Shown here: piece by piece, positions 1,831 through 60,832 of the stretch
Layout: every line of letters begins with the position of its first letter
Numbering within the stretch: position 1 is the stretch's first letter
NCBI GenBank assembly: GCA_026210745.1
Contig: CP110630.1
Location: 5,332,001 to 5,396,000 of the forward strand
DNA length: 64,000 nt
Origin: Exobasidium rhododendri
Lineage: Eukaryota > Basidiomycota > Exobasidiomycetes > Exobasidiales > Exobasidiaceae
Direction: 5' to 3'
Notes under the pieces: model-generated
The model's database searches: none
The model's input: only the letters and a program-made list of their open reading frames with translations
Told to the model about the DNA's origin: nothing
Position numbers and translations under genes: made by a program

Positions 1831-3816
1831 ATGGGGGACATTAGCGCATCCTCCTTCGATCGCAGCTTCCAACATGCGACAGCGACGAGCAGTAATCCAC
1901 TAGCAGTCTACAACCTGACCTCACCCAGCACTTCGTCCGCACCACCGCTTGGCGGATCAAAAGACGCAAGAGATCCTCGAGATGCTCCCGGCAGATCTGC
2001 AGCCTTTGAATGCCCCAGCTTGAATGACGTTCTGCAAAGGTAAATGAGTGTCATGTGTGGGAGTGGTGGTGATAAGAGTACTCAAATAGTGTCTTACCTT
2101 TAGTCATGGTGGTGTTAGACCTCTCGTAGCACCGCGCTTTCGCCTGCAAATACGACAGCAACCGGAACGTGGTCTGGCCGTCGGTACGGATGATTCAGCA
2201 TACAAGCGAGGTGAGTCGACTTTTTTTGCGTGCGTCTCGATGATGAGTATTCACACTCAGATTGCATCTTTCAGCGAGAGCAATACCCATCGATCCACCG
2301 CCAATATGCGAATTGGTACCTGAGCAAAGCAGTGATTTGTGAGTTTGTTGTCGACATCTAGCTCTGCAAGTAGAAGGATAAGGACAGCTGCCTGATTTGC
2401 TAACTCTATTTTGCCCTCCCAAAGGAAATACATCTCGGTTCCCGAAGTAAGTGTGCTGGCTCGGCTGGTACACTGTGATGCTCCCTTTGAAGAAGAGGCA
2501 AGCAATCGTCAATTCAGAGATCCTCTCATCAGTGGCATTCAAGAGAGTGGGTTCATTGCTCCTGTCATGGCACATGTGGGTGAGTGTCGCCGTGGCGCGT
2601 TATGGGCAAGGCAACCATTACCACTGCTGACCGTCGTACTATAGAGGAGTGCTTTTTTGTTTTCGCAGAGCTAGGAGTGAGAAGAGCGGGTAATTACAGG
2701 ATCCGATTCGACTTGGTGGATCGATGTGGACTTCGATTTCAATGTCTCGCATCTGTTTTCACGCAACCATTTACTGTCACTTCAGACGCAAAGGCTTTCA
2801 CCGGTCTCCAAGCTTCTTCGGAGCTGCTTCATGCCCTAGTCAAGAGGGGACTCAAGCTGCGCATCAACAAAGGTCCTCAAAACGAAAAGAAGGCGGTAAA
2901 AAAGAGAAAGAGGCTCATTGGGGACTCTGAGGCTACTTCAATAAATGCGCTCAAAGTCGCAGTAAATTCTCCCTCACACTCTCGCCATCCACGTTCTGCA
3001 TCACCAGCACGACCACCACCGTCATCTTTGCAGAGTCGCAGCCCGCTTTGGAGTGGCCACTTTCCACCGGAGTCGAGACCGCATTCTGGATCACAAGCTG
3101 GATCACAAGCTGGATCACACTCCAGACCACACTCCAGACCACACTCTGCAACACATAGTCAAACTTACTCGCAACACTCCCCCTTGTACGATACATTGCC
3201 ATCGGCGGCATCTTGTATACCTGCTCTTGTTGTCCAATCGCCAGCTCCAGCACCAGTCTCACCTCATCATCACAACAACACATCCTGGCAGGCTCGTCCG
3301 ATGCTGTCACCACCGTTCTTGCCTCAACTTTACAATGCACGTCGACAGGAGCCTCCCAGTTCTTCGTCAAGCTTCTCAACGGCGAGTCATTCTTCTTCTG
3401 GCGGATCAGAGCTAACGTCTCAAAGTTCCTTGACTTCACGATCAGCATCCACTCTACGAGGAGGCAGCAAAGCCGTAGACAGACCGGGATCAAGGTCAGG
3501 TTTCGGAACGAGTAGCCACAGTCTTCCACCGCTGTACCAGCATCTGAACAAGATAGACTACAGTATCAAAAGCGATGCTTCTATGAGCGGCACCAATCGA
3601 GGCGACGGAGCAAGCTATCGTATTCGCACACAGCCACCCCAACAGCTTGAGCAACACAAGCCACGATCAGGAAATCACTTCCGACCCCTATTACCCCCGC
3701 TCAATTCCTTGCACAGTACGCCTCCCTCACCAACGTTCTACTCCCCATCTCGTCGTAATGTCTCCCCTCACAGGCAGACTCACTCTCCTTCGTTTTTCTT
3801 CCAGCAACGAGAATGA
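1831..3816 (+). CDS. Velvet-domain transcription regulator (VosA/VelB/VelC type)
   Basis: Velvet proteins are fungal DNA-binding regulators that link development, sporulation and secondary metabolism, acting as homo- or heterodimers in the nucleus. Exons: 1831-2039, 2104-2210, 2275-2338, 2425-2579, 2669-3816 (560 aa). The velvet fold spans roughly residues 75-235. Seen in order are a LQIRQQPERG start strand, the IDPPPICELV strand, the Y-I-S-V-P core and the RAGNYRIRFDL strand that closes the domain. A basic stretch (KNEKKAVKKRKR) follows and could be a nuclear signal. The C-terminal 320 residues are disordered, rich in Ser, Pro and His, with a short tandem repeat. The start is the first ATG in frame; the frame opens earlier but without an ATG. 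It is convergent with the ferric reductase gene, 127 nt apart. The subfamily cannot be settled by eye; the long tail after an uninterrupted domain is more like VosA than VelB. Confidence 0.88.
3082..3160 (+). repeat. In-frame imperfect tandem repeat in the velvet tail
   Basis: Short units of about 15 nt (GGATCACAAGCT and CCAGACCACACT types) repeat in frame and encode alternating GSQA, HSRP and HSAT blocks. The repeat lies within the disordered C-terminal region of the velvet protein. The clean codon periodicity suggests replication slippage. Confidence 0.8.
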
Positions 3817-7710: not shown

Positions 7711-9823
7711 ATGTCTTCTCAAAATCAAGTCGATGGTGTCGTTGTCGGCGTCAGGGCAGCAGAGGCGACAAAGAGCAGTCTTCTCTCCAGCTTCACCTCC
7801 ATAGATGTCACCGCACAGTGGGCTAACTCCCGTGCTTCGACTACCAAGGCAGGCCAAGTGCGGGTCTTTTACCCCTCCAAGGTGAGCAGTGTTCCATGAG
7901 TATGTATGATGGCAAGGAACGCGGCCTGACCTCTGCTGTGATCGCCAGGCCAACGAAGCAATTGTCGCCGCTGTCTCAATCGCAAGCGATGTCAAGCCTG
8001 CTCCATCCACAGGGGCAGACACACTTTCCAGCGCAGATGTCTACCTTCGCAACGAACACCTCGAAGAGACTCGAGTAGCTGCTGCTAAAGGTGCTCGTGC
8101 GCTCAAGGAGCTCCCTCTCATCTCTTCAGAGGACAAAGAAGAAGCGGCACAACCTCGGAGAACTATCGCGTTGGACTCCTTTACGAGCTCGCACGCCGCC
8201 GCTACTGGCGCCCTCTTGGCTTTGTGGAAGGTGAATCATTTCAAGACGAAAGGTCCGTCTGGTGCTTTTGCCAAGGAGTATGGGTTACAAGGCGGTCGAG
8301 AGGTCAAGGTGATCCCCTTGCAGGGAGGCGATGATGCTGCACTCCATGACAGTGGCGACGAGATCAAGGAGAGCGCCGTGCCGTTGAGCTGGAAGACGGG
8401 AGAAGTGTGGGTAGAGCATGTGATGCAGCCTTCAACTTAGAGTATACTCATCCATGTCATTTCCCCCCCTTTTACAGCTATGCGGAAGCACAGAACTGGG
8501 CAAGGGAATTGGGCGAGACGCCGGCGAATCTCATGACCCCCACCATCTTTTGTAAAGTGGTGCAAGCCAAGCTCGCTCCATTCAAAAACGTCACTGCTGT
8601 TGCACACGACGTAGAATGGGCAAAGTCGAAAGGAATGGGATCATTCTTGTCTGTCACGCATGGCAGCGACGAACCGGCAAAGATGCTCGAAATTCGGTAC
8701 AAGGGTGCTGCCGCAAACAAACCGACATTGGCCCTCGTCGGCAAAGGAATTACGTTTGACACTGGTGGATATGCCCTCAAGGGATCAGTCGGCATGAAGG
8801 TGGGCATGGTGTCTAGTAAACTGCCAGTCACTTCTAACATTCTTCGCTGACTTGTCTGCCCCGTTCCCAGCTGATGCGGAGTGACATGGGCGGTGGAGCG
8901 GCGTGCGTGTCGACAATGTATGCTGCAGCCAAGCTTGGACTGCCTGTCAACATGGTCTGTGTGGTTCCTTTGACGGAGAACCTGATCAACGGACATGCAA
9001 CCAAGCCAGGTGACTTGGTCAAGGCGATGAATGGACTGACAATCGATGTCGACAACCCTGGTGAGTGAGAGCCCTGCTTTTTCATCATAATCGCCCGCTG
9101 ACCCCATCGCTGCTCTTCGCACTATTGCAATACCAGATGCTGAGGTGAATTAAAGCCGGCAGAACACCGATCAATTGCGTCACCCTTCTCGTACTCACAA
9201 AGACCTCTCTTCTCCTACTCATTTCCTTCCTCATCCCCAGGGTCGACTCGTGCTCGCCGATGCTCTCACCTACACATCTCGAGAGTTCAAGCCTTCGGTG
9301 TTGATTGATGTAGCTACTTTGACGGGTGCAATTCTTCACGCTCTAGGCCACGAATACTCTGGAGCATTTGTCGAAGATGAAGGTCTTTGGCAGGCGCTCA
9401 AATCTGCAGGCGAAGCTGAAAGCGACCCATTCTGGAGGATGCCCTTGAGTGATCGATACTACAAATACATCGACACTTCATACAGTGATGTAGTCAACGT
9501 CGGCAGACCGGCAGGTTCGGCTTCTGCAGCTATCTTCCTCAAGCAATTCGTCGAAGGGCTAGAAGATCGAAGCAAGGGAACAAAGGCGACTGTCAAGTAT
9601 GCGCATCTCGTGAGTCTGAAAGAGTAGGAGAAAAGAAAACATCTAGCGACGTTGCGTGATCTTGTCGTATTGAAAGCATGCCTTCATCATCCTATTCTAG
9701 GACATCGCTGGTACAATGGAGGCCATTCACTCCACACCGTATCAGGACAAGGGCTTGACAGGCAGACCGGTACGAGCCTTGATCGAGTTTGTTCGTCGCT
9801 TTGCCGTCAAGTCTGAGCTTTGA
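7711..9823 (+). CDS. M17 leucine (cytosol) aminopeptidase with an 8-nt micro-exon
   Basis: M17 peptidases are di-metal exopeptidases that remove N-terminal residues and form hexamers. Exons: 7711-7881, 7949-8406, 8478-8799, 8871-9060, 9137-9144, 9241-9609, 9701-9823 (546 aa, in frame throughout). The N-terminal domain is variable; the catalytic domain starts near YAEAQNWAREL. Metal and catalytic residues are present: GKGITFD (Lys, Asp), the Lys of YALKG, the Asp of RSDMGG, and DAEGR. The Asp, Ala and Glu of DAEGR depend on a micro-exon of only 8 nt; skipping it shifts the frame. The Thr usual in NTDAEGR is Pro. A C-terminal DIAGT motif matches the family. The exon 2 donor is GTGGGT, weaker than its neighbours but required for frame. 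It converges on the BIR gene, 146 nt away. Confidence 0.92.
9137..9144 (+). other. 8-nt coding micro-exon of the aminopeptidase
   Basis: The exon reads ATGCTGAG between a CAG acceptor and a GTGAAT donor. Joined to the flanking exons it completes an Asp codon and adds Ala and Glu, giving DAEGRL. It lies between a 76-nt and a 96-nt intron. No other acceptor or donor combination restores the metal-binding signature. Confidence 0.85.
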
Positions 9824-16712: not shown

Positions 16713-17224
16713 GGTACCGTACAAGACTGTGTGATGGGAGAGATGTGGCAAAAGGTCGGAGCAGATTGCAAGACTGACACCCTTTCCTGATTTTAATCCG
16801 CGCTCGGACCACCCATCATCCTTCATCGCATCAATTTCTCTTTTCCTCTCTCTTTTTTTCTCCCTTTACCTTGCCTGAAAGTGGACACGACCCACGACGC
16901 GTGTTTTGCCTGGAAGTAGCCTCTCGTGCAAGATTCGAGAGGGCCTCTAGGTGAGAACTGTAGGAATAAGGGAAATGGGACTATTGGCTACTGAGAGGAT
17001 GAAAGAGAGTGTGTAAGTGAGTGAGGGACGGGTGCTAGTAAGTGACGACCTTCTTAAGAGGATTGAACACCACTACGGCGAAGAAGCCCTCTCGCCACAT
17101 TGCTGCCTTTACAGCAAAGGTTCAGAGTCTTCTAGCATACTTTACAATTGAAGAAGCCCTCGGATGAGATCTCAAGCAGTCTACATCGATTGAAGAGTGA
17201 GTGGCTACGATTCTTGATTCCATC
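16713..17224. promoter_or_regulatory. Divergent region upstream of SET1 and an unknown gene
   Basis: This 512-nt gap carries both promoters. It has a pyrimidine-rich patch (16836-16870) and one ACGCGT at 16897-16902. A GTGAGTGG at about 17197 followed by GACAG near 17263 could be a 5' intron of SET1; if used, translation would begin at the later ATG (17297). Confidence 0.4.
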
Positions 17225-20200
17225 ATGGCACCGCTGACTCACTTCTTTCCTCTGATCGACAGCATTCATGGCACATCCAGCCGCCTTTTAAATGCTATGT
17301 CGTCCCGGTCTGGTGGCCATCCACCTTCAGGAAGACATCATCGACCACCTTTATCGGATGACTATGTTTACTCTCCATACGATGAGTATCATCGTCAACA
17401 GCAACATCGCGTAACATATGACTATTCGCCGGGCGGTCCTTCATCTTACTATGATAAATACGACCGAGGAGAACCTCGCTACCAAGACAGGCCGATTCAA
17501 GAAAGAGGTCATGCTGGCGACTCCGGAGGTTCACGCAGATTTTCTAGATACTATGGTGGATCAATGGATGGGGAGCCATATCGATATGATCGATATGAAG
17601 AAGAGGACCGGAGAGCAGCACGTCCCGCTGAATACGATGACCGGACAAGAAGCGGTCGAGATCGTCCCACGAGTTCGAAAAAAGAAACCTCGACTAGGAG
17701 CGATATGGATTTAGGCCGTAGCAGAGATAGCAAGAGCAGTCGTGGAGGGCAGAAGAACGGCACCATTAAGGATAAAGGTTCTCGAAGAAAGGAAAGATAT
17801 GATTCGGATCAAGATGATTATGAAGGATGGCACTCCACCAGGAAGAGCTCTCCTCTTAAAGCAGACAGAGAAGACAGAAGAGAACGAAAGGGCAAAGTCG
17901 ACGTCATTGCTATTCTGGAAGATTCGTGGTCGTCTGAAGAAGGCAAGGTCAGATTACCTCGAAGGGAAAATGGCAAAAGTAAAGTAAAGGCGAAATCAGC
18001 ATTGGTGGAAGAAGATGATGCCTTTGAACGCCTTGCTTCGAGTAAAGTGGAGAGGTCACATCGAGATAGAGGTAACAGCTCGATCCGAGATCATAGTCGA
18101 AGGAGAGACGAACCGGACACAGACAAGGCCAGAGAAGAAAGCGTAGACAGAGTGAGAAAGAGACACGAGGAAAAGGACAAGAGAAAAGACCCGGACAGGG
18201 AGAGGGAATGGGAGAGGAAGAGGGACAGGGAGAAGGATAGGGACAGGGACAGGGAGAAGGATAGGGACAGGGAAAGGGAGAAGGAAAGGGAAAGGGAAAG
18301 GAAAGACGAGAGGGAAAGGGAAAGGGAAAGGAAAGACGAGAGGGAAAGAGAGAGGGAGAGAGGGAGGGAAGAGGATAGAGATCGGGGAAAGAGAAGAGTG
18401 AGGGATGGAGAGAAGGAAAGGGAGAGGCGGCAAGAAAGTGAGGCGCAAAGGAGACTGAAGAGAGAAGAGAGGAGAGCAGAAGAAGTTTCTGAGAAGGCCA
18501 ATGCCTCCGAACAAGTCATTTTCGCTGCCACATCTGCTCCTGCTTCTCCCAATGGATACTCCGGAGCAAGTGCTCGCTCTGATCAACTTCAATCTGCAAT
18601 CACACCCTTGGAAGCTAGCTTACCACCTCCGCCAGATGACCGACCTGCTTCTCCTCCGCCACCACCTCCTACACCTCCACCTCTGTCCTTCAAGGATGTC
18701 TTGCTACCTCATGATTTTACGAAGGCAGAGAACGAAGCTCTTCTTCCCAGGACGAGTAGGGGGAAAGTATTGAGACCGTTCAAGGTCATGAACGGTTCTG
18801 CGCTTCCGATGGGTAAGGAAGGCGAAAGCAAGGAGAAAGGGGATGCTCACGATCCGCGGAGGAAGGGAAAAAAACAAAAGGCGATAGATGAGATAGGGCT
18901 CCTCCAGTGGAAATGGGACCCTCGTTCCACCAGAGCCAAGCCTCTACCTCCACCTCGAGCCGTTGTAGTCAGCAACATTGCAGCCTGGAAGACGCTCGTC
19001 GAGCTCAAGAGATTCTTCAGCACATATGGCAAGATTGAGGAAGCCGAGTTGTTCTTCAACAATCGTTCAGGAGCAAGTCTGGGCATTCTCTACCTCCTCT
19101 TCCAGCAAGACTACGACGAGGATCTCCGCTTGAAACCAGATGCAGTGGAAGGACTCAGTCAGAGGGGTGACTTGGTAGCCAGAGATGTCGTTGCAAAAGC
19201 AAACGGTATGGTGGTCCTGGAAGCAGTGATCAAAGTAGAACTTGATGATGACAATCGAAGTCGCTACATCGAGACTCACAAGGAGGCCATGAGGACGCTC
19301 TATCCCCCACCTGTTCCGAAAGCAAAGGTCGCCATCGACGGCTCATCGGAGAGAGTGGGACCGTCTTCTACTGAGGTAGCTGTGCCTTCTCCACTCCCGA
19401 CGGGACCGAAGAAGAATGCCCCTGCCGTCGTTATCCCTCGAGGTCCTCGTCATAGTGTGCCTTCGAGTGCCGCTCCTTTCCGAGGTGGCTATCAAGGTGG
19501 CACACTACACAGAAACAGCTTTGTCAATGGCCACGGCAAGGTATCAAGTCCTTACCAGACGTCCACTACTACCGAATCGCACCACAACTCATCACTTGCC
19601 AACCTTTTGCATCAGGGCGCGGCAGACGAAGATTTGCGTTCCAACGGACATGTGCATTATCAAAAGCCTGCACAGGCTTCAGGAGCGCACGGTGGCTCGA
19701 ATGCAGCAAATGGACAGCACAGTAGTGTGGCATTTGATGACGAAGATGTCGCCTTGATAAAACTTTTAGTCGCTAACAAACATCCATACTACTTCGTTCC
19801 GAGAGACGATGGTGGAATCTTCACGTACGAGGCTGTCTCGAGACTTTTCGGAGGTTGCTACCCTCTCTCATTTCAAGAAGATCGGAATGGGTGGTATGTC
19901 ATCTTCAAGGGCTCTAGTGATGCCGCTCGCCTCTATCATGTTTTTGGCGAGAGGCTTTTGCATGGTAGAAAGCTGAACGTCGAGATCAGGGACCCAAGAA
20001 ACTTGGAGGGGTTGTTGGCTCGCAAGATGAACACTTCTTCGAGAGCGAGTACGGCAGCTCGAGGACATTTGCAGGTGTCGCCAAAGAAGACTGCCATTGC
20101 AAGACGACCGGCAAAGACGACCTGGACCGATGAAGAGCTCCTCGATGACGCTAAACTCCTCTTGCTCCGTGAATTGGGGGAGATGTTCATCCGAGATATA

Positions 20201-21737
20201 AAGGCGAGAGTGATCAAACCCTTCTTGAAAGACTTCACTCGACCGGAAGCAGCTGGCGGCAAAGTGATATATGCGCCGACCAAGGTCGTCGAAGACGAGC
20301 TGGATGAGGAGGAAGAGGAGGAAGCGTCGGATAGCGATGTAGAAATGGAGGAGGAGCAACAAGAAAGTCCTCTGTTTGAGAAGGAAGAGGAGGAGGAGGA
20401 GGAGGAGGAGGAGGAGAAGGCAGCATTGCCGAGATCGCAGACGGAGAGAATGCTCAAAAAGGGTCTCGCTAGAGGGAGACTGGTCGATCAGCCAGACGAC
20501 GTGGTCGTAAATGACGTTGCGGAAGATACGGGCAAATCAAAGACAGGCAAGGCATCCAAGGCCAAGTATGTGACGAAGCCAAAGAAGAATGGGCAAGTGA
20601 CACAGGCTGACCGAGAGGTGGAAGCAAGCATACCAGGCGGAGATGACGAGCCTCCTGTTACTGTCCGAGTCAAGGTCAAGGCAAAGAAAAGTAAGAAAGA
20701 AAGCCGTCAAAGAAGCCCGTCGCCGGATCCCTTTGCCATGGGAATTGCGGAAGACGGCGAAGACTTGTACTACGTCAAGCTGGCCTTGGAGAGGATGCGT
20801 GTTGGCATGACGGCCAACGATATCATGGAAGAAGGCAGAGCCGTGTTGGAAGGTCTCGAAGGATCAGAGGCTATGGTAGGAGTGAATGGGTTGCCTCGCC
20901 ACGTCTCTGGCTCTGCTCGAACAGAAGGATTCTACCGCATCCCCCCTGCAGAGAAAGCTCTTCATCTACCTGATCGTAATCGAGCAGTAGTCGATCCAAC
21001 AAGTGCGATTGGTCTTGCGTCTGCTCGTGATAATCGTGCCGACAGCCGTCGATTTGTACAAGGTATCGAACAGCACAAGAAGGAGACCGCAACCGACACA
21101 GACATCCTCAAGTTCAATCAGTTACGCTCGAGGAAGAAGCAGCTCAAGTTTGCCAAGTCACCTATTCACGATTGGGGCTTGTATGCGATGGAATTGATAC
21201 CGGCCGGCGACATGGTCATCGAGTATGTTGGCGAGATTGTCAGGCAACAGATTGCAGACCAGCGTGAGAAGATGTACGAGAGGCAGGGCAACTTTAGCAC
21301 CTACCTGTTCAGGGTAGATGATGATGTCGTCGTCGATGCAACAAAAAAGGGCAATATCGCGCGCTTGATGAACGTGAGTCTTGAGCAGTCCTTCCGCCTT
21401 TGTCTTTCTTCTGCCATCTCGGCATGCTGACCTTCTTTTGATCATTCCATTTGCTCCCCCCTCCGCACACAGCATTGCTGCACTCCCAATTGCAATGCAA
21501 AGATCCTAACATTGAATGGAGAGAAGCGCATCGTGCTCTAGTGAGTCCTTCCGTCGCGATCCGCTGCCTTCACTACTAGTCCTGCGTTCTGATTTCCTCA
21601 TCTCCACCGTCAGTGCAAAGAACACCATCTACCCCGGACAAGAGCTTACTTACGACTATAAATTCCAAGCTACTGGTGACGAAGACGATGCCATAGCCTG
21701 TCTCTGTGGAAGCGATGGCTGTCGGCGATTCCTCTAG
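17225..21737 (+). CDS. SET1: SET1-type histone H3 lysine-4 methyltransferase (COMPASS catalytic subunit)
   Basis: SET1 is the catalytic core of COMPASS and methylates H3K4 at active promoters using S-adenosylmethionine. Exons: 17225-21373, 21473-21540, 21614-21737 (1446 aa). Order: a Tyr/Arg-rich disordered N-terminus; an Arg/Glu low-complexity tract (about residues 320-400); a Pro-rich linker; an RRM-like domain ([13 protein letters not shown], then [12 protein letters not shown]); a second RRM-like fold around residues 840-925; an acidic Glu run; the N-SET region ([11 protein letters not shown]); the SET domain ([32 protein letters not shown]); and post-[15 protein letters not shown]. The NHSCxPNC signature reads NHCCTPNC, and intron 1 splits it after the Asn. 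Translation may begin at 17225 or at the in-frame ATG at 17297. Confidence 0.92.
18180..18440 (+). repeat. Arg/Glu-coding purine-rich repeat tract in SET1
   Basis: The coding strand is almost entirely purines with scattered C. Sub-repeats are visible: GGACAGGGAGAAGGATAG recurs with a 24-nt period (18223 and 18247), and GAAAGACGAGAGGGAAAG recurs with a 30-nt period (18301 and 18331). It encodes strings of Arg-Glu, Arg-Asp and Lys-Asp dipeptides. Confidence 0.9.
20378..20417 (+). repeat. GAG/GAA repeat encoding a poly-Glu run in SET1
   Basis: About a dozen near-identical GAG codons encode an acidic run just upstream of the N-SET region. It is a simple in-frame microsatellite. Confidence 0.9.
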
Positions 21738-30628: not shown

Positions 30629-33600
30629 ATGGTCTTCGGCATTCACAGCGGTAAAGCTGCACCTCAATTGGACGAAAATGGCCACTTTTATGACCCTAAC
30701 ATGTCGAGCACCTACGATTCTGGACCGGCAGACCGGAATTACATTTCAGATCCTACGAATGCGGAGTATGATCCCGGCATTGATCCTAACCTGCAGCTTA
30801 GAACGGTCAGGACAGCGGCTGAGAGCATTGCGGAAAGTCATCGGAGTGAAGCCAGAAGGGAGTCCAGAGCCAAAGCAAAGAGAAAGGCTAGCATCCTTGG
30901 CAGACTGGGCAGAGGTAGAACATTGAAAAGGAAGGAGACCCAAAAGCGGACCAATGGTGCGAGCGGAATAGCAGCATTGGTTCATGATGATCTGGCTAGA
31001 ATTCGTGAAGCAAACGAAGTGCATCTTACAGGAGCTGATGGTTCCGGGGGCGAAGGTGTCGGTGTCGCCTTTGATAGCGCACAGCAGTACACCACTCCCC
31101 TGTCTGCCACAGCTGACGATCAGTTGACAGCAGAGAACGAAGCGGAGAAAGAGGCTAGCTCGGCAGGGATCGTACTGGACCAGGGGATCAAGAAGGCTAA
31201 GAAGACTCCTGCGAAGCGGAGAAACGTCTATCTCAACATTGCGCCAACATCACCGAATGAAGTCAAGAAGAACGGCGATCCGCTTGCCAGGTACCCAAGG
31301 AATAAAGTACGGACGAGCAAGTATACTTTTGTGACCTTTCTACCTCGCTTTCTCTCGGAACAATTCCGACGTCTGGCCAACATTTACTTTCTAGTGTTGG
31401 TACTTTTGCAAACATCCAGTCTATTCGGTGCAACGGTGCCTCAGATTGCAATGCTTCCTCTAGTGGCCATTTTGACCATTACTGCTATCAAGGATGGCGT
31501 GGAGGACTACCGCCGGCACATCCTGGACAACCAAGTGAACAATTCGGCAGTCACCAGATTAGGAAATTGGCGAAACGTGAACCAACCGACAGATACGAGA
31601 ACCTGGATAGAGAAATTGACTGGTCGGGGTGGAACGATGAAGGTATCACGAGGAGTGAAGAAGCTTCGAGAGAAGGAGGATGCCATTGGTATGAAACCTG
31701 TTGGCGGTGGCATGGATAGCATTGGAAAGAATGAAGTCTATTCGGGCGGGGAGAGCATGGAGAGAACGTTTACCAGTCAAACGGGCGACGACAGCATTGC
31801 CAGCGGATACGGCAACCACCTGGAAACGATTGCTTCCGAAAGTGAACATGGAGCGAGTGTAGCAGGCAAGAGCATACTCAGTAGGAACGGAAGTACCAAC
31901 GCTCTGCTTGTTGGCAGCACGACCAGTTTTGCGCCTACAACGAGAGCCAGCCTTCCTGACGGAGATGGCGTGGTCGATTATCGCAGACACACGCCGGGCA
32001 CCGGTCGATGGGAACGGACGCTGTGGAAGAAACTAGAGGTGGGCGATGTCATCTTCTTGCGAGAGAATGATCAAGTGCCTGCTGATATCGTCGTACTGAA
32101 TTCGTCGGATCCGGACGGCAATGCGTTTGTAGAGACGAAGAATCTGGATGGAGAGACGAACCTTAAGGTCAAAAAGTGTCTCAAGGCTACCATGGGAATT
32201 CAAACGGAAGAAGATGTGGAACACGCTCGCTTCGTCATTGACTGTGAACCACCTCATGCGAACCTTTACTCCTTCAATGCTCTGCTGAAGTTTGAGAGGC
32301 AGACGACGAACATAACTTCTTTCACAAAAGACAGCGAAGACCTACACACCGGCGACTCTTTTGGCGCAACGAGCAGCGCTGCCAGTGCGAATGCTTCCAC
32401 AAAGATGGAACCAGTGACGGCAAACGAGTTGTTACTGCGAGGCTGTGCGCTGAGAAACACCGAATGGGTGATTGGAATCGTCGTCTTTACAGGCAGCGAT
32501 ACCAAGATCATGCTCAATGGAGGAGAGACGCCGTCGAAGCGATCAAAGATTGAAAAGGAAACAAACGTCAACGTTGCAGTGAACTTTCTCATACTGTTGC
32601 TCATGTGCACGGCGTGTGCAGTCATCGGTGGGATCATCCTCAACTTTGACGATACGAGCAGGGACTACTACGAAGTGGGCGCAGAGGACAGCACGAGCAA
32701 CATCATCAATGCTTTGATCATCTTTGGGTCTTGCATGGTGCTTTATCAGAACATTGTGCCTGTATCGCTCTACATCAGTATCGAATTGACCAAGACGATC
32801 TCCGCATTCTTCATCTATCAAGACATCGACATGTACTACGAGCCACTCGATCTTCCCTGTGTTCCCAAGACGTGGGGGATCGTGGATGATCTCGGCCAAA
32901 TCGAGTACATCTTCTCCGACAAGACGGGCACCCTGACGCAGAATGTCATGGAATTCAAAAAGTGTTCCATCAACGGCGTCTCGTACGGGGAAGGAATAAC
33001 AGAGGCGATGATGGGGGCAATGAAGAGACAGGGCAAGGACACGTCGTCCAGCGCCGATCCCGAAGCGCAGCACGTCCAGATTGAGAGTCAAAAGCAAGAA
33101 ATGATTGCGAAGTTGAATCAGACATTCAAGAATCGATACCTGCGTCCGGAGCAGTTGACGCTCATCTCCCCACACTTGTCTCAAGCAATTGCGTCTCAGA
33201 GTGATTTGACTCAAAGAAGAAACGTGATTGCCTTCTTTCGCGCTCTCGCACTCTGTCACACGGCTTTGGCAGATCGAGCGGACACGGGGAATGCCTTTGC
33301 TATCGAGTACAAAGCACAAAGTCCGGATGAAGCTGCGTTGGTCAGTGCTGCCAGAGACGTGGGGGCCGTCTTCCTGAACAAGAATAACAACGTCATTGAC
33401 GTGGAGATCATGGGACAGCCAGAAAGATACACTCCCCTAAAGGTGCTGGAGTTCAACAGTACGCGAAAGAGGATGAGTGTGATTGTTCGAGATGCACAAG
33501 GAAGGCTGCTTATGATCTGCAAAGGAGCTGATTCGGTCATCTATCAAAGGCTGCGAAAGGACCACCCAGAAGAGTTGAAGCAGTCTACTCAAAGGGATCT

Positions 33601-36064
33601 GGAGGAGTTTGCCAATGCAGGATTGCGGACACTGTGTATAGCGTATCGATACTTGGAAGAGGGCGAATACGTTGAATGGTCAAAGGTGCACGAAGAAGCA
33701 GCCTCCAGTCTTGTCGATCGGGACGATAACGTGGATGAAGCGTGTGAGAAGATCGAAGTGAACCTCACACTGATGGGAGCTACTGCGCTGGAGGATAAGC
33801 TGCAAGTCGGCGTACCGGAAGCGATCGAAAAGCTTCATCAAGCGGGTATCAAATTGTGGATTCTGACGGGTGATAAGCTGCAGACGGCGATTGAGATTGG
33901 ATTCAGTTGCAATTTGCTCTCTTCCGAGATGGAGATTATGATCATCAGTGCCGATCATGAACAAGGCACGCGGGCTCAATTGGAAGCTGCTTGCAACAAG
34001 ATTGCTGCTTCTGGTCGACCGATCGTCGTGCAAGCTCGTAATCGAGGCATGTTCCACAAGCAGAACAAGAAGCAGCAACAACAGCAGCAGCAAGAGTTCG
34101 ACGGAGACGGCATCACAAGCGACAAGAGCTCCTTTGCCGTCGTAGTAGACGGAGAGACGCTCAAATTCTGTCTGGACAAGAATCTGAAACCGCTCTTCCT
34201 AGCACTGACAACGCAGTGCGACACTGTAGTCTGCTGTCGAGTCAGTCCCGCCCAGAAGGCTCTTACCGTTCGACTGGTCAAGGATGGGATCGGCGCCATG
34301 ACACTGTCGATTGGAGACGGTGCAAACGACGTCAGTATGATTCAAGAGGCGCACGTTGGGGTAGGAATCGCTGGATTGGAGGGTGCGCAAGCTTCTATGA
34401 GCGCTGACTACGCCATCGGACAGTTCCGTTTCCTGACAAAGTTGCTTCTCGTTCACGGTCACTGGAACACGTATCGGATCGGCGTTCTTCATCAAGTCTT
34501 CTTCTACAAAAACCTGATCTGGACATTTTCCCTGCTCTTGTTCCAGATATTCTGTCAAGCAAACGCGACGTATCTGTTCGACTACAGTCTCATCCTGCTC
34601 TACAACCTCATCTTTACGAGTCTGCCCGTTATCATGCTGGGATCGTTGGATCAAGACTTGAGAGCGCCTGCTTTGATGAGGTTCCCTCAAACGTATGCTC
34701 CTGGTCGAGAGGGCAAGCTCTACACTCGCACACAGTTCTGGGTCGCGTGCATCGATGGCATCTACCAGAGTATCGTCTGTTTCATGATCCCAGCAGCTTC
34801 GTACTATTGGTTCCCCATCATCGACTCTGATGGTCTCAGTCTAGACCCTCTTACCGCCCTGGGATCCACCGTGGGAGCCTCCTGCGTCGTAGCGGCCAAC
34901 CTTTATTGTGGTCTGATGCTGCAGAATTGGTCTGCTATCATCTGGTTTGTGATCGTACTCAGTAATTTGTCGTACTTTGTTTGGATTGCCATCTACAGTT
35001 CAGTCGCTTTCGACACGACCTTCACCGATACGGCCTACGTTCTGTTCGGGACTGTGCAGTTCTGGGCGGTACTCGTCCTCAGTGTGATGTTGTCGCTCCT
35101 GCCACGATACACGTGGAACGCTTACTGTAGCTCCTTCCGACCTACCCAGGTGGACTTGGTTCGACAAGCATGGGTGAAGGGAGACCTGAAGATTCGGCTT
35201 GGCATACGACCGGGTTTGGGAGAGGAACGCTTCGAGAAGGTGGACTTGGAAGACGGACGAGAGAGAAGTGACGGTCCTTTCGTGAACGACACGACACCTA
35301 CCACGACTGGTGATGAGCAGTACCTCCAGGAAGAGAGGATGTATGACGAATCAAGGTCAGATGCGCCCGTCCCCCTTCGTGGATGGCAAGAGAGTGGTGC
35401 AGGAGGAGCGACAGCGGGAGCAGGACGAGATCGTGGAAGAGACAGTCTGATGCCGAATCTAGCGGGCAGACCGCTCGAGTCTTCTTACAGCTTCTACGAT
35501 CCAGACAAACTACCTGCCAGCTATACGCCTGAACCGGGTATGTCCATGACGACCATGCAAGAAGATGAAAGGGGCGTCCATCCCATGAAAGATGACGGCG
35601 ATTATCCTGGGTATCATCACGATCCCATACGAGACGTGCCACAGATCAACGTTCAGCGCGCATCGATGGGCAGTCGCTACCCTTATCCGCAAGCAGAGCA
35701 CGAAGCAGCGAACAGTCGGACTGCCCTTGCCATGACCAGTACAGACTCCTTTGAGAACCAGTTCCAGACGGCTTTTCGCACAGAGAACTCACAGAACCTG
35801 TCCAGCTCGCCTCTGAAGCGATTTCATGATCGATTCCATCAAGACGCGACAGCAGGACAACGACAGCAACAGCAACAAGTACCGTCTTCATCATCATTGC
35901 CAAGCAGTAGTGATAGTGAGATGAATGCGTACACCAGCCCAGAGCGACCGTCAGCCCATGCGAATCGACAGTATTCCGAATTTTCTGCTGCCGACAGTGA
36001 AGCAGACGGCTTCTACACACCTGCTCATACGCCCGTTCGGCAGCCGAGCGACGACTGGAGGTAG
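30629..36064 (+). CDS. P4-type ATPase, phospholipid flippase of the Dnf1/Dnf2 type
   Basis: P4-ATPases move aminophospholipids or phosphatidylcholine from the outer to the cytosolic leaflet of plasma and Golgi membranes, usually with a CDC50-type partner. The gene is one 1811-codon frame with no intron. An N-terminal cytosolic arm of about 220 residues precedes the first helices (FVTFLPRFLSEQFRRLANIYF). The actuator loop has LDGETNLK near residue 507. The helix 4 motif PVSLYISIE is the P4 form of the P-type PEGL. DKTGTLTQN, with the phosphorylated Asp, is near residue 764; KSPDEAAL-like QSPDEAAL and the hinge GDGANDVSMIQ (about 1229) follow. Six C-terminal helices and a 300-residue disordered tail complete it. 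A poly-Gln insertion lies near residue 1149. Tail length and motifs favour Dnf1/2 over Drs2 or Neo1. Confidence 0.93.
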   Translation: MVFGIHSGKAAPQLDENGHFYDPNMSSTYDSGPADRNYISDPTNAEYDPGIDPNLQLRTVRTAAESIAESHRSEARRESRAKAKRKASILGRLGRGRTLKRKETQKRTNGASGIAALVHDDLARIREANEVHLTGADGSGGEGVGVAFDSAQQYTTPLSATADDQLTAENEAEKEASSAGIVLDQGIKKAKKTPAKRRNVYLNIAPTSPNEVKKNGDPLARYPRNKVRTSKYTFVTFLPRFLSEQFRRLANIYFLVLVLLQTSSLFGATVPQIAMLPLVAILTITAIKDGVEDYRRHILDNQVNNSAVTRLGNWRNVNQPTDTRTWIEKLTGRGGTMKVSRGVKKLREKEDAIGMKPVGGGMDSIGKNEVYSGGESMERTFTSQTGDDSIASGYGNHLETIASESEHGASVAGKSILSRNGSTNALLVGSTTSFAPTTRASLPDGDGVVDYRRHTPGTGRWERTLWKKLEVGDVIFLRENDQVPADIVVLNSSDPDGNAFVETKNLDGETNLKVKKCLKATMGIQTEEDVEHARFVIDCEPPHANLYSFNALLKFERQTTNITSFTKDSEDLHTGDSFGATSSAASANASTKMEPVTANELLLRGCALRNTEWVIGIVVFTGSDTKIMLNGGETPSKRSKIEKETNVNVAVNFLILLLMCTACAVIGGIILNFDDTSRDYYEVGAEDSTSNIINALIIFGSCMVLYQNIVPVSLYISIELTKTISAFFIYQDIDMYYEPLDLPCVPKTWGIVDDLGQIEYIFSDKTGTLTQNVMEFKKCSINGVSYGEGITEAMMGAMKRQGKDTSSSADPEAQHVQIESQKQEMIAKLNQTFKNRYLRPEQLTLISPHLSQAIASQSDLTQRRNVIAFFRALALCHTALADRADTGNAFAIEYKAQSPDEAALVSAARDVGAVFLNKNNNVIDVEIMGQPERYTPLKVLEFNSTRKRMSVIVRDAQGRLLMICKGADSVIYQRLRKDHPEELKQSTQRDLEEFANAGLRTLCIAYRYLEEGEYVEWSKVHEEAASSLVDRDDNVDEACEKIEVNLTLMGATALEDKLQVGVPEAIEKLHQAGIKLWILTGDKLQTAIEIGFSCNLLSSEMEIMIISADHEQGTRAQLEAACNKIAASGRPIVVQARNRGMFHKQNKKQQQQQQQEFDGDGITSDKSSFAVVVDGETLKFCLDKNLKPLFLALTTQCDTVVCCRVSPAQKALTVRLVKDGIGAMTLSIGDGANDVSMIQEAHVGVGIAGLEGAQASMSADYAIGQFRFLTKLLLVHGHWNTYRIGVLHQVFFYKNLIWTFSLLLFQIFCQANATYLFDYSLILLYNLIFTSLPVIMLGSLDQDLRAPALMRFPQTYAPGREGKLYTRTQFWVACIDGIYQSIVCFMIPAASYYWFPIIDSDGLSLDPLTALGSTVGASCVVAANLYCGLMLQNWSAIIWFVIVLSNLSYFVWIAIYSSVAFDTTFTDTAYVLFGTVQFWAVLVLSVMLSLLPRYTWNAYCSSFRPTQVDLVRQAWVKGDLKIRLGIRPGLGEERFEKVDLEDGRERSDGPFVNDTTPTTTGDEQYLQEERMYDESRSDAPVPLRGWQESGAGGATAGAGRDRGRDSLMPNLAGRPLESSYSFYDPDKLPASYTPEPGMSMTTMQEDERGVHPMKDDGDYPGYHHDPIRDVPQINVQRASMGSRYPYPQAEHEAANSRTALAMTSTDSFENQFQTAFRTENSQNLSSSPLKRFHDRFHQDATAGQRQQQQQVPSSSSLPSSSDSEMNAYTSPERPSAHANRQYSEFSAADSEADGFYTPAHTPVRQPSDDWR
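34065..34095 (+). repeat. CAA/CAG repeat inserting poly-Gln in the flippase P domain
   Basis: An in-frame run of mixed CAA and CAG codons encodes about seven Gln preceded by Lys/Asn-rich sequence. It lies in a surface loop between the nucleotide-binding domain and the hinge, where P4-ATPases vary in length. Confidence 0.85.
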
Positions 36065-40093: not shown

Positions 40094-41529
40094 ATGACGA
40101 CTGACGCACGATACGATACCCCCATCCCTAAGGATTTTGCGATCTTGGGTGAGAAGGTTCATCTGCCGTTCACCGGTCGAGATGCACCCTCGCGATTCAT
40201 GAAAGGTGCCATGACTGAGAGACTATCGTCGTGGGATCAACACGAGCCAAGCAAGAGAGGAGTCCCATCCAAAGAACTTATCAAGGTGTACGAAGAATGG
40301 GGAAAGGGCGGCTTTGGCATCATCTTGTCAGGCAATACAATGGTGAGTAGACACCTACTCCAGGCGTCGTCTATCCAACTGTCACCCACTAATCTTGATT
40401 CCTCACCCCACCCCCCTTTTATTTTACTCAGATCAATCCCATGGACCTGGAAGCCCCTGGTAACCCAATCATGAGCAAGTCGACCGACAGCCCAGAACAT
40501 GCCGCTGGATTTGATGCAATGGCCAAGGCTGCCAAAGCGCACGGATCCCTTTTCATCACTCAATTGAGCCATGCCGGTCGACAAGTAGCAGACTTCATTC
40601 AGCCACACCCCGTCTCTGCTTCTGACATTAAGTTGCAGGACACGATGGGAATGTCGTTTGGTAAGCCGACGGCACTCACCGTCGAAGGCATCCAAGGAGT
40701 CATCAACGATTTCGCCTACGCTGCAAAGTACGCGTACGACCATGGTTCAGACGGTGTTCAACTTCATGCCGCTCATGGCTACCTGCTCTCTCAATTCCTT
40801 GCCAAGACAACCAACAAGCGAACAGACAATTACGGAGGTGAATTGAAGAATCGAGCAAGAATCATTTACGAAAGCTTTGCTGCAATCCGTAAGGCAGTGC
40901 CCGACCCTAATTTCATCTTGGCCATCAAGATCAACTCTGTCGAGTTTCAAGAAGGTGGCTTCGAATCGACTGAATGCAGAGAAGTCTGTCAAGAGTTGGA
41001 GAAGCTGAAAGTAGACGTGATCGAGCTCAGTGGAGGCTCATACGAATCACTTGCATTTGGTCACAAGCGAGAATCAACAAAGAAGAGAGAAGCTTTCTTC
41101 TTGGAGTTTAGCGATCTTGTCCGAAATGGTCTCAACAAAGAAGGAAAGGGAAGCACCATCTGGTTGACGGGAGGATTCAGATCAGCGGAAGCCATGGTCG
41201 ACGCCATCAAGGATGGAAGCACAGACGGTATTGGTCTCGCTCGACCTGCCACCGATGAGTTTGACCTGCCAAACAAACTGATCAGGGGAGAGGTCCCGTC
41301 CAGTCGGAAGACGCTCTTGGACGAGAATGATTTTGGCATTACCAATGTAGCGTCGGGCACACAGATTCGTCAAGTTGGATATAACAAACAACCGTTCAAC
41401 ACTACTGATCCAAAGCAAGTCGATGAATTCAAGGCAATGGTCGGCAAATACATGGAGTCAATGGGCGCATCTCTGTCCAAGGGAGAAGTGAAGGCAGGAT
41501 ACCCAGACTTCACCTATGTAGGAGCCTAA
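40094..41529 (+). CDS. NAD(P)H:flavin oxidoreductase, old yellow enzyme family
   Basis: OYE-family flavoenzymes use FMN and NAD(P)H to reduce activated C=C bonds of enones and related electrophiles. Exons: 40094-40342 and 40432-41529 (448 aa). It has the TIM-barrel order: an N-terminal segment with RFMKGAMTER, GIILSGNTM, then ITQLSHAGRQ (the FMN-contacting Gln-x-x-H-x-GR), VQLHAAHGYLLSQFL with the His-x-x-His active-site pattern, YGGELKNRAR, and the phosphate loop around GGFRSAEAM and DGIGLARP. HAAHGYLLSQFL is highly conserved in the family. At about 448 residues it is slightly longer than classical OYE. The TATA box and short leader suggest regulated expression, possibly by oxidative or electrophile stress (inferred). 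It converges on the PQ-loop gene. Confidence 0.9.
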
Positions 41530-57637: not shown

Positions 57638-60600
57638 ATGGGCGACAAATCGCTCAAGCGTAGCTGGCTTCGATTAGTAGGAGACTCGGAGCTCGGAGAA
57701 GCTTCAAGAACTGAACTGACCAGAGTGACGGCTAGCACGATCGATGCGACATTAGGTTCTATTCGGGGAGATGATTTTTGGGTTGCTTTGGCCTGTGTCG
57801 AAGCCATCGAGAAGGTCTCGCTGTCGACGAATGATGTGACAACAACTAGGCACCTACTCTCCATAGGCCTCCAGCACAGTATCATGGATACCAATGCTGA
57901 AGATATCTTTGGTTCTCCCCGCGCCTTGTACCAGCTGGCAATTCGAAAGGTTCTCTTGAAGTATAGGCGTATGATGACTGTATGGGAGCAGCTTTTTCAT
58001 TCAGAGGGAAGGAACAATGTGGGAGACGTGGTGGAAATTTGGGAGAAACAAGAGAAGTTTGTGCCTAGTGACACTGAAAATAACGACGACGACGATGCTT
58101 GGGCCGAAGCTGCAGAGACGACACCTTCACCAGTCGCTACCACTTCTAATCATATAGCACTGTCTGACTTTATCAGTCAGAGTCCTCTCGCTGTTGCCAT
58201 CCATCTAGCATCTAGCCATCAATATCGCCAACTCACCCTGCTCTTGAAAGCTCTACCAAGCTCGCTCTACGAAGAGATATACCTGAAGCGGCTAAATATC
58301 GTCAAGCTTCTGCTCTTGTCTGCGGCATCTGCAGAGGTAGATATAGACACCCTTTTACAGATGGGGCTGCTACCGTCCTTCAGAGATGGCCAAGAATTTG
58401 GTCTGTGGAACGAATGCAGGAACCCAATGGAAGCTCCTGATGCGACAGATACAAAGGAAGTTGTGGAATTATTACTCAGCCATGGACTAATAACGTCGGA
58501 AGAGCATTCACATGAGTCAACGAGAGAACCCTTGTCACCATCGTCACTCTTGTCTTTCTATCTGGACTGCATCACAACACTGGAGAGTCGTTCGGGGTCT
58601 ATCTCAGCATCGATTGAGCTTGCCCGTATTGTTTCCTCGGATCAGATGCGATTACCTCCGAATGAAGGCTTGAACCGACTGACTGTAGATTTGCAGTTGT
58701 TGATGCCACTGGTGTATGGAGCCGCGTCTTGCTCTACCTGCTCATCCTGGACGCTCAACCGATTGAGAGAAGAGCTGCATGCACGGCCCGACCTAGAAGA
58801 GCGACAATCAATGGCTGTGCTCTACCTCGAGGAAGCTCAATCGCCCCACGTCATCATCGAAGGATCCCGCAACGGCGTAGTCCCATTTCTTCGCATTGTC
58901 ACACACCGACATGTCTTACAGTTGGGTGAGGAAGTGGCAGAAGATATGATGGTGAAAGACGGCTTCATCCAGGTGATCTTGAAATTAGCCGACAAGGGAC
59001 GAGTCGCTACTGTGAATACACTTCTATCTGAAAGTGCGGCGTGTGGAATTGAGCTAAATGGTGTCGAACGGGGTAGAATAGCACTTGCTGCTCTCATAGG
59101 ATCCACCAAGCTTGACCAAGCCAACATTCGACAGTACGATCAGCTAGCTCTTTCAGCAAGCTCAGAGCTTTCAAAGGTGGCTCCAGGAGGGGAGAATCCT
59201 CCGCTTCGGCAGTACGTTGGCCCTGACTTTCACCCTGGTAATGGCACTCCATCGACACCCTCTCGAATTCATCAATTCTTACTAGGACTTGAACAGCATG
59301 CTATCTCCTATCACCTACAACGCTGTCGCGTCTACCTCTCTGCCATTCAGCGTCTGTCTGCTTGGAATAATCTCCTCACCTTGCCATGGCTTGCTGATGT
59401 GCAAGGACAGCGGGAAGAACAAATAGGGTGCGTAACCCGAGTCATTCGAACGTTTGCCAGAGACACAAATCCCTCTCAGCAATGGAAACACCTGATCGAT
59501 AGTTTAGTAGAGTGTGTGGGAAGGCAGGAAGCACTAGATACATTAGAGGAAAAGGACGTAGCACGCTTGATCGCAGAAGGAGCCCTTCGCACTAGCGACT
59601 TGAGAATCTTTTCCCTTCTCATGAAGGAGCGTTGCTTGAGTCAATTGTCTGACAAAGAAAGGGAAGAGATTGTTCTGAGTGCTTCAAGGGAATTCTACGA
59701 TAACGCTACGTCGGCGAATCTCTACTCTGGTGATATGAAGATTGCGTACGAGATCTTGTCTCAGAACGACGTCCGCAACACGCCAAAAATCGAACAAGAA
59801 AAGGCATTCATGGAAGCGAGTTCTCGGCTGTGCTCCTTTCGAGTCCAGTCAAGCCTACGACCTGGCGTCCTTCTGGCTCCCATTGAGATACGCCTCTCGA
59901 CGGATCGACTAGACTTCATCAAGAAGCTCTTAGAATCAAAGGAAGATGCCTACAAGACTCCTGACCTCATACTTGAAATAGCAACGAAGCTCTGTGCTGT
60001 TCCTAGTGGAGCAGCGACCGGTGACTCCCAACCACTCGCCAATCGGCAGGTCGTGGAAAGCAAGACGCTGTCGCTCTTGACAGAAGCGGCACTCGGTCAA
60101 GCAGACTACACTCGAGCTCAAGTATCTTGCGAGCGACTAATACAAAGTGTCACTACGATCAGTAAGCGAGTCGAACAGTCTGCGGTCACCCATGGAGCGA
60201 ATCACGAGTCTCTGCAGAGAATTTTTCTTCAGATCAGCGAGATCGCCTACCGGAGTTGTTTCTATCTGTGCAACCAACAGGAGTGGATTGACTACGCAAG
60301 TCGTCTACGTTGGTGCTCGTACGTACTAGCCTACTGTCCGGATGAGCAGGTGGAAAAATACCTAAAGACCTGGAGACACTTAGAAAGACAGTATCAAGAG
60401 GAACTCTTTACGAATCCTTCACAGTCAAAAGACTGGAGCCAAGTCGCCGATCAGCTAAAGCCAGGCCAAGGCAGTCTGGCAAATAGTCTAGCCTCGATTG
60501 GCGGGATCGGAGGCGGACTAGGTGCACTAGAATCATTGAGTCCGTTCAGCACTCTATTTGCAAGTACCCGTCTGAGTTCTGCATTATCACGAGGGTCTTC

Positions 60601-60832
60601 ATCTCTTCAAGATCACTCCAACGCTCCTATCTCGAATACCTCGAATAGCATCGGTAAGAGCACGACTTCTACCGTCGGCAGTAGCAACAGCCCTACTTCT
60701 CGGACCGCTCGATTATTCGACTCTCTGGGCGGAGGCAGCCCTTCGAACGACGCTGCGAATTCTGGTTACCTAGATCCCGCGGAACGAGCGGCCAGAGCTG
60801 CAAGACGCTTCTTTAGTGGATTTGGCTCATGA
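57638..60832 (+). CDS. SEC39: Sec39-domain protein, Dsl1 complex tether subunit
   Basis: Sec39 (NBAS in animals) is part of the Dsl1 tether that captures Golgi-derived COPI vesicles at the ER. The gene is one intronless frame of 1064 codons. It is helical almost throughout, as expected for the alpha-solenoid. The start has MGDKSLKRSWLRL and a helix with VALACVEAIEKVSL. A RKVLLKYRRMMTVWEQLF helix and an acidic DDDDAWAEAAE segment are characteristic of the Sec39 family. LSDFISQSPLAVAIHLASSHQY follows. Mid-protein, long helices with ALLIGSTKL and RVYLSAIQRLSAW repeat. The last 150 residues are Ser/Gly-rich, ending ARRFFSGFGS. ATG 57638 is the first Met in frame. The gene converges on the galactopyranose mutase. 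Confidence 0.78.
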   Translation: MGDKSLKRSWLRLVGDSELGEASRTELTRVTASTIDATLGSIRGDDFWVALACVEAIEKVSLSTNDVTTTRHLLSIGLQHSIMDTNAEDIFGSPRALYQLAIRKVLLKYRRMMTVWEQLFHSEGRNNVGDVVEIWEKQEKFVPSDTENNDDDDAWAEAAETTPSPVATTSNHIALSDFISQSPLAVAIHLASSHQYRQLTLLLKALPSSLYEEIYLKRLNIVKLLLLSAASAEVDIDTLLQMGLLPSFRDGQEFGLWNECRNPMEAPDATDTKEVVELLLSHGLITSEEHSHESTREPLSPSSLLSFYLDCITTLESRSGSISASIELARIVSSDQMRLPPNEGLNRLTVDLQLLMPLVYGAASCSTCSSWTLNRLREELHARPDLEERQSMAVLYLEEAQSPHVIIEGSRNGVVPFLRIVTHRHVLQLGEEVAEDMMVKDGFIQVILKLADKGRVATVNTLLSESAACGIELNGVERGRIALAALIGSTKLDQANIRQYDQLALSASSELSKVAPGGENPPLRQYVGPDFHPGNGTPSTPSRIHQFLLGLEQHAISYHLQRCRVYLSAIQRLSAWNNLLTLPWLADVQGQREEQIGCVTRVIRTFARDTNPSQQWKHLIDSLVECVGRQEALDTLEEKDVARLIAEGALRTSDLRIFSLLMKERCLSQLSDKEREEIVLSASREFYDNATSANLYSGDMKIAYEILSQNDVRNTPKIEQEKAFMEASSRLCSFRVQSSLRPGVLLAPIEIRLSTDRLDFIKKLLESKEDAYKTPDLILEIATKLCAVPSGAATGDSQPLANRQVVESKTLSLLTEAALGQADYTRAQVSCERLIQSVTTISKRVEQSAVTHGANHESLQRIFLQISEIAYRSCFYLCNQQEWIDYASRLRWCSYVLAYCPDEQVEKYLKTWRHLERQYQEELFTNPSQSKDWSQVADQLKPGQGSLANSLASIGGIGGGLGALESLSPFSTLFASTRLSSALSRGSSSLQDHSNAPISNTSNSIGKSTTSTVGSSNSPTSRTARLFDSLGGGSPSNDAANSGYLDPAERAARAARRFFSGFGS

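Follow-up and report, generated by a model that had tools for sequence, protein, structure and literature searches.

Gene structure and the DAEGR motif

How an M17 leucyl aminopeptidase gene can encode the active-site motif DAEGR when two introns lie only eight nucleotides apart within it was the question raised by this locus of the 64-kb window, which is the whole stretch of DNA analysed. The analysis indicated that the 8-nt micro-exon between the two introns is very probably real and constitutive, that is, obligatory, in this gene.

In the predicted splicing, the gene consisted of seven exons on the + strand at 7711-9823 and the spliced product was a 546-aa M17 leucyl aminopeptidase. Exon 1 (7711..7881) started at ATG, exon 2 (7949..8406) was followed by the donor GTGGGT at 8407, and exon 3 (8478..8799), which was placed by the spliced model and by homology, held the sequence GKGITFDTGG. 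Exon 4 (8871..9060) ended in ...GAC AAC CCT G, where the G at 9060 opens the Asp codon (phase 1). It was followed by intron 4 (9061..9136, 76 nt, GTGAGT...TACCAG), the micro-exon ATGCTGAG (9137..9144) and intron 5 (9145..9240, 96 nt, GTGAAT...CCCCAG). Exon 6 (9241..9609) began with GGT CGA CTC and encoded GRLVLADAL...KYAHL, as given by the spliced model and the Pfam match, and exon 7 (9701..9823) ended in the stop codon. The micro-exon was entered in phase 1 (G/AT) and left in phase 0 (GAG/GGT), and thus it completed Asp and encoded Ala-Glu, with the joined reading G-AT GCT GAG GGT CGA giving Asp-Ala-Glu-Gly-Arg. The coordinates and intron lengths of the initial annotation were confirmed, and its span 9061-9240 corresponded to the two introns plus the 8-mer. 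Its statement that the Asp and Glu of DAEGR are encoded only by the micro-exon was right for Glu and for the last two bases of the Asp codon, but the G with which this codon begins belongs to exon 4. Introns 4 and 5 were comparable in length to the other four introns of the gene (67-91 nt). With 8 nt between CAG and GTGAAT, ATGCTGAG fell by its sequence into the micro-exon length class (1-15 nt between AG and GT), the class being that of internal exons of <=15 nt as in PMC8831610.

The protein including the micro-exon matched PF00883 Peptidase_M17 with 369.5 bits (cut-off 25) over model positions 1-310 of 310, and it aligned with bovine LAP through the DAEGR motif. Five metal ligands (bovine Lys250, Asp255, Asp273, Asp332, and Glu334) and two catalytic residues (Lys262 and Arg336) were identical in the alignment. 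The Asp and Glu of DAEGR were equivalent to Asp332 and Glu334, which are zinc ligands according to the residue roles given in the text portion of PMC10649214, so that the earlier suggestion of two metal ligands in the micro-exon agreed with the alignment. The domain match together with the ligand and catalytic residues placed the product in the M17 family, and aminopeptidase activity is predicted. An M17 family search of the 17.6-Mb, four-contig assembly gave three exon matches, all within this gene; the search scores the best candidates only, and this is the only M17 locus in the sense of the only one found. DAEGR was present in 119 of the best 120 homologues listed (of 7991 hits), and the exception was P0025. 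Among 360 proteins, in a count that includes many fragments or proteins with an unrelated earlier DAE, GR came directly after the first DAE in 279 and other residues in 20, and the remaining 61 were without DAE. One of the 20, P0264, was read as carrying an intron at the intron-5 position.

Specificity of the 8-nt exon within the 180-nt gap

The 180-nt gap at 9061-9240 contained nine AG...GT segments of <=60 nt. Three of the nine kept an open frame through exon 6, and one of the nine, the 8-mer alone, restored DAEGR. Candidate exons of 23 nt and 35 nt starting at 9156 kept the frame open but did not give DAEGR. A scan of both strands of the 64-kb window located the pattern AG-AYGCNGAR-GT at a single site, 9135. 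Among 100,000 dinucleotide shuffles of the 180 nt, 5 contained this pattern and 3814 contained the bare AYGCNGAR, so that the result owes much of its weight to the flanking splice sites.

Intron states in related genes

The intron states of relatives were read from ORF translations, that is, from proteins and not from DNA, with ORFs that run into introns taken as hints to the boundaries. The ORFs of P0258, P0025, and P0241 broke at the same codon as intron 4, and those of P0264 and P0121 at the same codon as intron 5. The P0025 ORF read ...LTIDIDNT and then GMYSIHT..., and the junction NT-GMY allows a GTATGTA donor. Beyond the break, the 24 residues of DAEGRLVLADALTYVSREYKPAVL were all found at once in another frame, against a maximum of 16 in 60 shuffles, for a target that was written with P0025 in view. 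With two untuned targets, the window sequence and P0003, 22 residues matched, which was reached by 0 of 1000 shuffled tails (maximum 18). From the count, this intron would be 52 nt long and in phase 1, with a donor compatible with GTATGTA. P0025 would thus have the upstream intron and lack the downstream one, with DAEGRLVLADAL unbroken in another frame.

The opposite state was indicated by P0264, which ended in ...LTIDVDNPDAE-VSD, and P0121, which started with LILNALIQ and continued into GRLVLADAL. The two were paired as one relative since both were listed with a contig of 45,908 bases, and this relative appears to have the downstream intron and to lack the upstream one. P0131 read VDNTDAEGRLVL uninterrupted and appears to have neither intron. 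P0258 and P0241 broke at the intron-4 codon (DNP-GEQ and DNT-GEY, respectively), where GE allows a GTGA(G/A) donor; their downstream-intron scores were reached by 159 of 300 and 73 of 300 shuffles, and both ORFs stopped before the motif. P0001 and P0002, which read through DAEGR at full length, were not counted as intronless because their sources may have predicted splicing. P0122, P0124, and P0125, which start downstream of GR, and P0123, which starts further on, were left out of the intron-5 scoring.

As read from these translations, four states would exist at a single 8-nt interval, namely both introns in the window gene and upstream only, downstream only, and neither in three relatives. 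Both introns together were seen in the window gene only, among the readable relatives. Conservation of the micro-exon, for which a comparison of orthologues had been proposed as a check, was not seen in the readable relatives: one was without the downstream intron, one without the upstream intron, and one without both, and in two more the readable part covered the upstream intron only. We take the relatives that have each bounding intron at the same codon while the other intron is absent as the strongest support for both junctions. Such a four-state series, if borne out by DNA, would be a natural set for asking how micro-exons arise and vanish.

Among distant M17 ORFs, P0358 read ...VDNTDAEG-KASSL, compatible with a GGTAAG donor that lies one base past the intron-5 position of the window. 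P0356 ended directly after DAEG, and P0242 and P0334 directly after DAE. It may be that introns have been drawn to DAEGR in several lineages; alternatively, the ends of these four ORFs may be contig ends.

Origin of the micro-exon

In a maximum-likelihood tree of M17 proteins (34 rows), the window protein fell within a 12-row clade (support 100/100) inside a 26-row group (100/100). The latter also contained rows from Tilletia, Tilletiaria, Malassezia, and smut fungi, all of them Ustilaginomycotina, and by its place in this M17 tree the source fungus is most likely a basidiomycete of the same subphylum. Each half of the 12-row clade contained the upstream intron, and the downstream intron was found in the 7-row half of the window only, few rows being scorable. 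The support of this 7-row group was 93/96, and its inner forks were mostly without resolution. The distribution suggests that the older phase-1 upstream intron came first and that a phase-0 intron would later have been gained 8 nt downstream at GAG/GGT, a gain history presumably accompanied by losses in some lineages. The micro-exon is therefore probably a by-product of intron turnover, in which an older intron was joined by a second one 8 nt farther downstream. We infer the gain of intron 5, rather than its loss elsewhere, from few rows and are less sure of it than of the exon itself.

Alternatively, both introns may be old, with each lost separately in relatives, and the exon would be equally real. 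Fungi lose introns readily, and a single loss fuses the 8-mer to a neighbour. The four different states of the window gene, P0264/P0121, P0025, and P0131 could be explained in this way. However, intron 5 was seen only in the 7-row group of the window, though few rows were scorable, and two old introns appear rather unlikely.

The source of the putatively gained intron was searched for in the assembly and within the gene. Introner-type gain is defined by near-identical intron copies elsewhere in the genome. No further copies of intron 4 or intron 5 were found in the assembly at E <= 1, and each intron matched itself only, in a search that skips very common words and from which a large or diverged family could escape. 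An origin of intron 5 as a tandem copy of intron 4 was rejected because the local alignment score was reached by 466 of 500 shuffles. Introner spread and local duplication were without support because there were no further copies and introns 4 and 5 were unlike each other. When all introns of the gene were compared pairwise, intron 5 with intron 6 gave the lowest shuffle count (7 of 200), and this likeness was not counted because 15 comparisons were made.

Splice signals and the proposed splicing route

The donor of intron 5, GTGAAT, was the sole one of the six donors of the gene without G at +5, and the acceptor tract of intron 4 had the lowest pyrimidine share of the six (0.59 vs 0.65-0.88). 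This weak donor and pyrimidine-poor acceptor could be used inefficiently. Intron 4 contained a branch-like CTGAC, with the A at 35 nt from the 3' end, and the branch-like candidates of intron 5 were CTCAC or CTCAT. Each short GT-AG intron would be recognised by intron definition, and the two would be removed one after the other. The 8-mer, once joined to either neighbour, would become part of a normal-sized exon, and for this reason no exon definition across 8 nt would be needed. According to PMC8831610, the splicing machinery does not assemble simultaneously on the two ends of a micro-exon, and for a 1-nt exon of Arabidopsis, a combined intron-definition and stepwise model was suggested by the authors (PMC4674806). 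From the plant data in PMC8831610, the downstream intron would often be expected to be removed before the upstream one. By analogy, the same stepwise removal by intron definition may apply here. We infer splicing in the cell, the order of removal, and the constitutive nature of the exon from the DNA.

All four alternative products of mis-splicing were predicted to be truncated. Skipping of the micro-exon shifted the frame, as had been claimed for this out-of-frame exon, and led to a stop after 402 of 546 aa. Retention of intron 4 gave a stop after 382 aa (...DNPGE), retention of intron 5 a stop after 385 aa (...DAEVN-stop), and retention of both introns 382 aa. Enzyme activity should depend on the inclusion of the micro-exon because it carries two metal ligands and its skipping shifts the frame. 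If the 8-mer is overlooked in gene prediction, an enzyme that is intact would be annotated as defective in the active site. The donor GTGAAT of intron 5 leads straight into an in-frame TAA (9151-9153).

It was proposed in the initial annotation that regulated inclusion of the micro-exon would act as an on/off switch. Such a switch, in which inclusion is controlled, for example by nutrients, and frameshift and nonsense-mediated decay decide whether the aminopeptidase is made, would be compatible with the truncation of all four alternative products, with the weak donor of intron 5 and the low pyrimidine share of the intron 4 acceptor, and with the glucose-dependent micro-exon switch published for Trichoderma Xlr2 (PMC11121469). 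However, most introns would be expected to give truncated products when mis-spliced, and truncation as such does not indicate control. The features examined gave no positive indication of regulation, and nothing spoke for the switch beyond the somewhat weak donor. Readable relatives form the same motif with one intron or with neither, so a switch would not be conserved along with the enzyme. The proposal was left without support and is very unlikely. A narrower form of it, in which the weak donor limits the splicing of intron 5 so that the sole M17 gene found is silenced by frameshift or nonsense decay in some conditions, with the control restricted to the lineage that gained intron 5, would be a little less probable still. 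It is most improbable that DAEGR has been lost or that the locus is a pseudogene, with 9061-9240 as a single 180-nt intron (or retained) and the 8-mer as a chance match. An intron of 180 nt would be possible, although the other four introns of the gene measure 67-91 nt. Chance, however, gave 5/100,000 shuffles, a single intron would shift the frame at the active site although the 546-codon frame is otherwise open and aligned to M17 enzymes, and the breakpoints on both sides are independently present in relatives.

Comparison with known micro-exons

The probably obligatory 8-nt exon has close counterparts. CYP5141A1 of Phanerochaete chrysosporium contains an 8-nt micro-exon, gg/cac/gag (PMC12940212), which, like the exon described here, belongs to a basidiomycete gene, would shift the frame if skipped, and lies in a conserved enzyme motif (AGHETT). 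It differs in that it encodes part of a P450 I-helix and not of a metallopeptidase, and the text portion on CYP5141A1 describes no single-intron relatives. Fusarium CYP621A has a 1-nt exon, shared by all 24 genes studied (PMC12940212), which is likewise a fungal micro-exon that completes a conserved motif, and which was inferred from phase and then backed by RNA reads. Unlike the present exon, it is found in ascomycetes and is 1 nt long, and its authors propose the rescue of a lost base and not a second intron. Other P450 micro-exons of P. chrysosporium (PMC1184071) are similar in being from a basidiomycete and lying between small introns; they encode 2-10 aa, the shortest being 6 bp, and they belong to one large gene family, whereas the gene here is the only M17 gene found in its assembly. 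Trichoderma Xlr2 (PMC11121469) resembles the present gene in that a functional domain is made or not according to whether a fungal micro-exon is included, but Xlr2 is a transcription factor with glucose-dependent inclusion, and the M17 exon gave no sign of such regulation.

Among plants, the 9-nt exon of invertase (PMC8831610) is similarly very small, in phase 1 and placed within a conserved enzyme motif, and was missed by rice and maize gene models. In contrast to the M17 exon, it is 9 nt long, keeps the frame on skipping, and is reported as conserved. The 1-nt exon of Arabidopsis APC11 (PMC4674806) is constitutive and too small for exon definition, as would be the case here, but it is 1 nt long, from a plant, and experimentally shown. 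The view that the 8-mer is one of the smallest exons possible had to be abandoned, as exons of 1 nt are published (PMC12940212, PMC4674806). Tiny exons completing conserved enzyme motifs are already known, and the added value of this locus is the intermediate states in neighbouring lineages. No title on a micro-exon in an M17 gene was found in the literature search, in which the micro-exon queries did not name the enzyme, so that this is no proof.

Surroundings of the gene

Ten ORFs of the window were scanned against Pfam, and five were matched. These neighbouring ORFs matched a Velvet factor (2584-3813), an N-SET plus SET protein (17201-21427), a phospholipid-translocating P-type ATPase (30629-36061), an FMN oxidoreductase (40441-41526), and Sec39 (57638-60829). 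No Rfam families were found in the window at gathering scores. The assembly comprised 17.6 Mb in four contigs, with 7.1 Mb in contig C1, and the chromosomes are perhaps few and large.
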